Shown here in pieces: positions 4,006 to 4,993 of a stretch of DNA of 64,000 nucleotides (position 1 is the stretch's first letter; each line of letters opens with the position of its first letter). The DNA is from a virus. The notes beneath the pieces were generated by a model. The model saw nothing but the letters and a program-made list of their open reading frames with translations, ran no database searches and was not told the DNA's origin. The DNA lies in the IMG/VR virus record IMGVR_UViG_3300042893_000474, positions 1-64,000 of that record. The stretch is one strand, 5' to 3'. The translations under genes were made by a program, and so were the position numbers.

Positions 4006-4323
4006 ATGTCAGAAGAAAAAGAAGAAGGCGGTATGTCCGCTGCTAAAAAAGCCATTATTGGAGCAATCACTACTGCAGTTACTGCAGGTGGTGCTTGGTT
4101 TGCTACCCACTTAGGGGGAGGCGAAGAAAAAGCTGAGGCTCCTACTGCTGTATCAGCACCTGCACCTGTGATTAACATCACTACGAACAACGAACAGAAG
4201 CAACAAGCAAACACTGGTGATGGTGGTAAAACCATTATCATCAAAGAAAAGGCTGCACCTGCAGCTGCTCCTGCTCCAGCTCCTGCCGCTAAACCCCAAG
4301 CTGATGAAGAAGATCCTTGGTAG
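4006..4323 (+). CDS. Single-TM protein with Ala/Pro-rich periplasmic tail
   Basis: I place the start at the ATG at 4006, just after the stop of the previous gene, rather than an in-frame ATG 48 bases upstream that lies inside that gene. The 105-residue product has a short charged N-terminus, one hydrophobic segment (about residues 14-35), then a polar stretch and an Ala/Pro-rich tail ending in acidic residues. The likely topology is an inner-membrane anchor with an extended periplasmic arm. Its 3' end overlaps the start of the CsgG-like lipoprotein by 20 bases, an arrangement that recalls spanin pairs (membrane-anchored protein plus overlapping outer-membrane lipoprotein). Function not established. 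Confidence 0.55.
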   Translation: MSEEKEEGGMSAAKKAIIGAITTAVTAGGAWFATHLGGGEEKAEAPTAVSAPAPVINITTNNEQKQQANTGDGGKTIIIKEKAAPAAAPAPAPAAKPQADEEDPW

Positions 4324-4993
4324 TCTACTATTAGTAATCCTTGTCTATGGTTGTGGCTCAATGAAGACCACAACCGATAGCGAGGTTATTGAAACAAAAG
4401 ATATTTCTACAGTATCTGGTTATACAGATTCAATTAAAAAAACTGTACAAGTAGTAAGTGTAGATATGACTAAAGTACTTTCTTTGTATCCTGCATTACA
4501 AGAGAAGAACGTAGGCTTAGGTTTTGCAGAATCTGTGTTAGATTACCTAGATGAAACAAATCGTTTTATATTTACTGAGGAGAAGAGTGAAATCAAGGAA
4601 AGGATGGTAACTCAATTCAAAGCTTCTAAAAAAGGAGTCTTTGATGAACCTGTTGATGGCAAAGGAAAGATTAAACCTGCACACTATTTTGTTTATGTAA
4701 CTGTGGCTGATTTTGCCGTAGATGAAGACGAAGCAGTACAAGGTGGAAAAACTAAAGTAGTAGTAACTACTTTTATCCGACTCCAAGTTCGTTTTGTAGA
4801 TGCCAAGACTGGGCAAATCTACATTGGTTCTGGAGAAGGTGAATCCTTGAAAGTAGGTGAGTCATTCTTAAAATCTCTTGACAATATGAAATTCTCTCAA
4901 AGTACCGTAGGTAAGGCAACACGCAAGTCGCTAGAAACAGCATGCACTAAAGTGATTGAAAACCTTATTAGAAACGGTGTCTTTAAGAGTTAA
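4304..4993 (+). CDS. CsgG-like outer-membrane lipoprotein
   Basis: 229 residues from the ATG at 4304. An in-frame ATG at 4217 is rejected because it would place a low-complexity shadow of the previous gene before the signal peptide. The new start gives a clean lipoprotein signal, MKKILGSLLLVILVYGC, with Cys17 as the lipidated residue. The mature part follows the CsgG/curli-secretion pattern as I know it: a glycine-containing start of a helix and a 'NRFIFTEEKSEIKERMV' segment, then a strand with many Thr/Val, VDAKTGQIYIGSGEGES, and a C-terminal amphipathic helix. CsgG forms a ring-shaped outer-membrane channel. The neighbouring genes are all envelope or exported proteins, so a phage-encoded pore is plausible. 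Confidence 0.65.
   Translation: MKKILGSLLLVILVYGCGSMKTTTDSEVIETKDISTVSGYTDSIKKTVQVVSVDMTKVLSLYPALQEKNVGLGFAESVLDYLDETNRFIFTEEKSEIKERMVTQFKASKKGVFDEPVDGKGKIKPAHYFVYVTVADFAVDEDEAVQGGKTKVVVTTFIRLQVRFVDAKTGQIYIGSGEGESLKVGESFLKSLDNMKFSQSTVGKATRKSLETACTKVIENLIRNGVFKS

Follow-up and report, generated by a model that had tools for sequence, protein, structure and literature searches.

On the forward strand of the 64,000-nucleotide stretch analysed here (positions 1 to 64,000 of IMG/VR record IMGVR_UViG_3300042893_000474; the window), two overlapping genes, denoted B (4006..4323) and C (4304..4993), lie among genes for predicted lysis, membrane and exported proteins. The source record (G000) is a 93.7 kb virus contig, possibly a fragment, whose large terminase (window 10117-12117) matches those of crAss-like phages, including Cellulophaga phi4:1 (30%). 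In the phage collection, the terminase of Leptolyngbya phage Lbo-JY46 comes closest (37%), an odd neighbor for a crAss-like phage, and the host label of that phage may be questionable.

Gene B, whose start agrees with an alignment of 16 relatives, encodes a protein of 105 aa with one predicted transmembrane (TM) segment, a low-complexity Ala/Pro arm and a conserved C-terminal EEDPW motif (bases 4306-4320). The description of this protein in a preliminary account as a one-TM protein with an Ala/Pro-rich arm is borne out: the TM segment covers residues 16-34 (bases 4051-4107), is marginal by its Kyte-Doolittle value of 1.39 and is the sole hydrophobic segment of the protein, and the arm contains ~14% Ala and ~11% Pro across 105 distinct homologues. 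Given that the TM segment is preceded by KK and followed by acidic residues, the positive-inside rule suggests that the long arm extends into the periplasm, with the N-terminal TM segment anchored in the inner membrane. A Pfam search with B gave no match, and its PHROG matches were weak and at the level expected by chance.

Gene C starts with the ATG at 4304 and encodes a predicted lipoprotein of 229 aa, with the lipobox MKKILGSLLLVILVYGC at its N-terminus (Cys17); a regular-expression scan of the complete record (93.7 kb) recovered no other convincing lipoprotein-like ORF. In an AlphaFold2 monomer model built from 38 sequences (mean pLDDT 68), residues 31-229 of C are predicted to adopt a CsgG-type fold: the top structural matches are all to CsgG (Foldseek 1.5e-6; Z 12.8 over 154 residues), followed by PelC (Z 9.6), FlgT (8.9) and LptE (~8). 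With respect to sequence similarity, the Pfam CsgG family was matched by 6 of 38 C homologues (best 1.9e-4) and the LpoB model by 3 of 15 (best 9e-5); the C protein of the window has no Pfam match, its similarity to the CsgG family lying below the curated Pfam cut-off, and a Pfam CsgG match was absent from the entire record at E 0.001. Furthermore, searches against PDB sequences with C as a single sequence and as two profiles retrieved nothing at E 10, the PHROG matches of C were weak and chance-level only, and profile comparison with Escherichia coli CsgG aligned 21 residues around a TGE motif, an uninformative result obtained with a single-sequence template. The earlier designation of C as CsgG-like is correct at the level of the fold.

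The overlap between B and the start of the lipoprotein gene, previously given as 20 bases, corresponds exactly to positions 4304..4323. Of the eight gene junctions from the endolysin gene to gene F, six show an overlap (1, 4, 4, 20, 17, and 4 bases), so that the overlap of B and C is by itself unremarkable. To place the pair in a comparative context, we draw on 160 loci obtained from scans of viral contigs in which the window C and its homologue from Flavobacterium phage vB_FspM_immuto (immuto) served as queries, with 105 distinct B and 106 distinct C sequences compared. The spacing between the two genes is mostly between -23 and +1, the commonest values being -20 or -7 and others -1 or +1; in a few loci it extends up to 1.3 kb. 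In one locus (L113) gene A sits between B and C. Loci L044, L046, L086-L089, L092-L094, and L096 have ~0.6 to 1.3 kb between B and C, which is room for at least one gene. B was nevertheless detected in 141 of the 141 loci that contain C and have more than 2.5 kb of upstream sequence, and a C-terminal Trp is present in all 105 distinct B proteins. Among these Trp-ending proteins, 28 distinct ones are encoded by genes that do not overlap C, and 16 by genes located more than 50 nt away from it; because the Trp end is kept even where there is no overlap, the motif appears to be conserved for the sake of the B protein rather than to preserve the beginning of C. Judging from these comparisons, the view that B and C are fixed partners is well supported. 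The lipobox Cys, by contrast with the Trp, is missing in at least 27 of the 106 distinct C proteins, two further proteins that lack it being left uncounted as probable start-choice errors, and the C protein of immuto has a type I signal in place of the lipobox. As far as these predictions go, the B-C partnership does not always involve a lipid anchor in the outer membrane.

The neighboring genes of the window, all encoded on the same strand, place the pair in a larger set. Upstream of the pair, coh (1762..3654) encodes an exported protein with a cohesin domain (residues 406-535), a dockerin-like segment and a type IX secretion C-terminal sorting domain (residues 553-629; Por_Secre_tail, 1.1e-11). 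Among 20 coh homologues, Por_Secre_tail was found in all 20, Cohesin in 19 and Dockerin_1 in 4. In immuto, coh is represented by two genes (gp14 and gp15), and B and C correspond to gp16 and gp17. Downstream of C, gene D (4977..6422, with a GTG start at 4977) encodes a protein of 481 aa. In its AlphaFold2 model, a signal peptide and an N-terminal domain are followed by a disordered linker and a predicted outer-membrane beta-barrel of 12 strands (residues 275-479); the structural matches of the barrel reach Z values of up to 18.5, and FapF is among the Foldseek matches. Pfam gave no useful match for D. Gene E (6419..7621) encodes an exported protein with a dockerin-like tail and a head that varies among relatives: of 20 homologues, 7 match Lectin_C, 4 Laminin_G_3, 2 PA14, 2 GEVED and 1 Dockerin_1, and the E protein of the window has no Pfam match. 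The dockerin-like tail was recognized by eye, and Pfam dockerin matches are few. The heads differ among relatives while the tail is common, in the manner of an interchangeable binding head (e.g., L081 10527-11525). Gene F (7624..8064) codes for a small exported protein of the same cassette. Gene A (3651..3998), which encodes a two-TM protein, is often part of the cassette and is movable, being located after C in many contigs and missing from immuto; no other gene of the group is as well conserved (72% mean column identity across distant phages). Often near the cassette is a gene for an exported SprT-like protein with a HESQH motif (1307..1765), whose match, at E 0.008, lies below the curated cut-off. 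The row begins with a holin candidate, hol1 (403..666), a two-TM protein resembling small genes that precede endolysins in relatives, and an endolysin candidate, lysW (669..1307; PHROG 33083 endolysin, 7e-10; PHROG 3000, 4e-34).

The conserved set consists of coh, B, C, D, E, and F, often accompanied by A, the SprT-like protein and an exported nuclease, and its gene order changes among carriers. The searches of the openly accessible literature that we conducted found no description of this cassette. It is carried by phages that are unrelated to one another, and the host of at least one of them is a Flavobacterium: the same cassette is present in immuto (host Flavobacterium sp. LMO8), a T4-like myophage with gp20 and gp23 homologues, and its occurrence in both a crAss-like phage and a T4-like phage indicates that it moves between unrelated backbones. 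A scan of contigs from bacterial genomes recovered a single cassette contig, in a metagenome-assembled genome labelled Sphingomonadaceae (L083), which is probably a phage contig misplaced in that bin.

Moreover, the cassette is linked to lysis genes. Among the 84 loci with at least 7 kb of sequence on both sides, a holin or endolysin is present in 69, and when the C proteins are clustered at 90% identity, 21 of the 24 resulting clusters include one or more members with a holin or endolysin no further than 7 kb away, a fraction that in our judgement, as distinct from a computed expectation, exceeds what 7 kb per side in a genome of 100-160 kb would suggest. The endolysins near the cassette belong to two different families and occur on either side of it. 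The earlier observation that lysis genes are next door thus holds for most carriers and not just for the window. In immuto, the main endolysin and the holin are located ~30 kb from the B-C pair; taken alone, this distance would argue against lysis linkage, but the count over clusters outweighs it.

We propose that B and C are the trans-envelope parts of a conserved surface-display cassette, a functional reading that we infer from gene content and predicted structures and to which we assign a probability of about 0.5. Under this proposal, C, which is usually lipidated, would probably sit at the outer membrane on its periplasmic side, where it could join with D, the predicted outer-membrane barrel, in an outer-membrane assembly, and B, anchored in the inner membrane, would span the periplasm and use its conserved C-terminal Trp motif to hold C, alone or in complex with D. 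The coh protein would reach the cell surface through the type IX secretion system of the host, and E, with its dockerin-like tail and variable carbohydrate-binding heads, could dock on it, such that a lectin-bearing complex would decorate the infected cell late in infection. Conceivably, such a complex could help infected or lysed cells to adhere, keep rival phages out or control the timing of release. Several features count against this reading, namely the scarcity of Pfam dockerin matches, the marginal TM segment of B and the absence of recognizable CsgG hairpins in C; furthermore, the location of the cassette beside lysis genes in most carriers would fit a role in lysis as well.

Several known systems share features with the proposed arrangement. 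Curli (type VIII secretion) modules are encoded by pelagiphages and by the OM43 phage Melnitz, and the same range of uses, that is, adhesion, exclusion and release timing, has been proposed for them (PMC9599517, PMC9004378). As in those modules, a probable outer-membrane protein with a predicted CsgG fold is part of a gene set common to unrelated phage families; unlike them, the present cassette includes an outer-membrane barrel and type IX-exported proteins with cohesin and dockerin-like elements, the CsgG hairpins are unrecognizable, and no curlin or CsgF was found by Pfam in ten proteins of the cassette region. The combination of C and D is also reminiscent of PelC/PelB and LptE/LptD, in which a small lipoprotein of related fold is paired with an outer-membrane barrel. 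D further resembles FapF of the fap functional amyloid system in the succession of an N-terminal part (helical in FapF), a linker and a barrel, although the linker of D is long, disordered and Gly/Ser-rich, and FapF is one of many barrel matches. Finally, coh combines a cohesin with a sorting domain and has a dockerin-like partner, as do cohesin-dockerin scaffolds with type IX sorting domains, from which the present system differs in being encoded by phages and in possessing interchangeable lectin-like heads. Type IX secretion is a bacterial secretion system that occurs in Flavobacterium and its relatives. If the surface-display reading is true, these phages possess a complete module for surface display that relies on type IX secretion of the host and lies close to the lysis genes. 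It would be the counterpart, in another group of bacteria, of the curli modules carried by marine phages, with adhesion, rival exclusion and release timing as testable roles.

A related but tentative possibility goes further. The cassette could be a mobile lysis-linked module, common to unrelated phages, in which a cohesin-anchored lectin complex is exported by the type IX system, with C, D, and B forming its envelope part, and which would cause lysed cells or progeny to stick to particles, or would exclude other phages.

A role of C, together with D, as an outer-membrane pore that times lysis or passes material late in infection is unlikely in our assessment. The predicted CsgG fold of C and the lysis linkage of the cassette would be in line with such a function, which has been proposed for CsgG-CsgF of phage Melnitz (PMC9004378). 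Against it, the stretches of C that align with the membrane hairpins of E. coli CsgG are shorter, and the first of them contains an invariant acidic pair (E141, D142). In the absence of recognizable CsgG membrane hairpins, secretion via C is doubtful, and so, on this alignment, is pore formation. In addition, no similarity between D and CsgF was detected by profile comparison, which is a weak test given its single-sequence template.

The preliminary description interpreted B and C as an alternative spanin. In such a scheme, inner-membrane B would join outer-membrane C, and together they would breach the outer membrane after the endolysin has opened the wall. We consider this decidedly unlikely, although some of its foundations stand, in particular the constancy of the partnership, the CsgG-like nature of C and the proximity of lysis genes. 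As with lambda Rz/Rz1-type spanins, a predicted inner-membrane protein and, in the window, a predicted lipoprotein are encoded by overlapping genes that in many carriers are near lysis genes; no second lipobox ORF was recovered from the record; and the joint periplasmic length of B and C, ~280 residues, is within the range of 62-300 residues of known pairs (PMC6139136). Moreover, many of the other carriers have no overlapping TM/signal pair beside the holin. However, neither the overlap nor the lipid anchor is conserved, genes may intervene between B and C, C is predicted to be a large globular domain of the CsgG fold, the arm of B appears to be of low complexity instead of forming a helical domain, and the two genes travel in the company of surface genes. 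As to the helical or coiled-coil periplasmic domain of inner-membrane spanins, a coiled coil is not predicted for more than 120 of the known i-spanins (PMC6139136). Furthermore, immuto has an overlapping pair of its own with the holin and endolysin that are distant from B and C, and the genome under study encodes another overlapping pair, beside a holin. That B and C are mere neighbors in a tightly packed late operon, with an overlap that reflects gene packing and no direct partnership, is the least probable explanation, for while most nearby junctions overlap and the B/C spacing varies, B accompanies C in every suitable locus across rearranged cassettes and its C-terminal Trp is invariant.

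The other overlapping pair lies beyond the window, downstream of a gene for a 4-TM holin (65,037-65,456 of the record; PHROG 199 holin, 1.3e-5). It is composed of a protein of 106 aa with a strong N-terminal TM segment (65,440-65,760) and an exported protein of 123 aa that has a signal peptide as well as a C-terminal TM segment (65,639-66,010), the two genes being in different frames with an overlap of 122 bases. The exported member has a type I signal and no lipobox, and in this respect departs from the textbook o-spanin. Of 24 related records, 10 contain relatives of this member and 14 contain relatives of the holin. The 122-base overlap recurs in the six complete copies that were read; L175, L176, L178, and L179 were excluded, because in these the exported member has a stop near its beginning or a different start site. 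The next gene in the row encodes an exported DNA/RNA nuclease (PHROG nuclease, 3.4e-18), such that holin, pair and nuclease together occupy 65,037-66,591 of the record (L164 2038-3592). This region is a conserved second lysis locus. The statement that no standard spanin is visible is accordingly valid inside the window and does not extend to the rest of the genome, and a canonical spanin pair elsewhere in the genome, which the preliminary account named as a refutation of its own reading, has largely been found, with the qualification that the pair at 65.0-66.0 kb departs from the textbook form. By its predicted features, this pair (65.4-66.0 kb) appears more spanin-like than B and C and is more likely to perform the spanin function; for the step of lysis at the outer membrane it is a specific candidate, preferable to B and C.

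An unrelated pair with the same layout, gp187/gp186, is located near the holin of immuto. For gp186 of NC_055915 (46129-46488, L166), an in-frame upstream ATG adds the signal peptide MKKLILLIPILLLSLSSFSQ and extends the overlap with gp187 to 89 bases, which suggests that the annotated start of gp186 is probably too far downstream.
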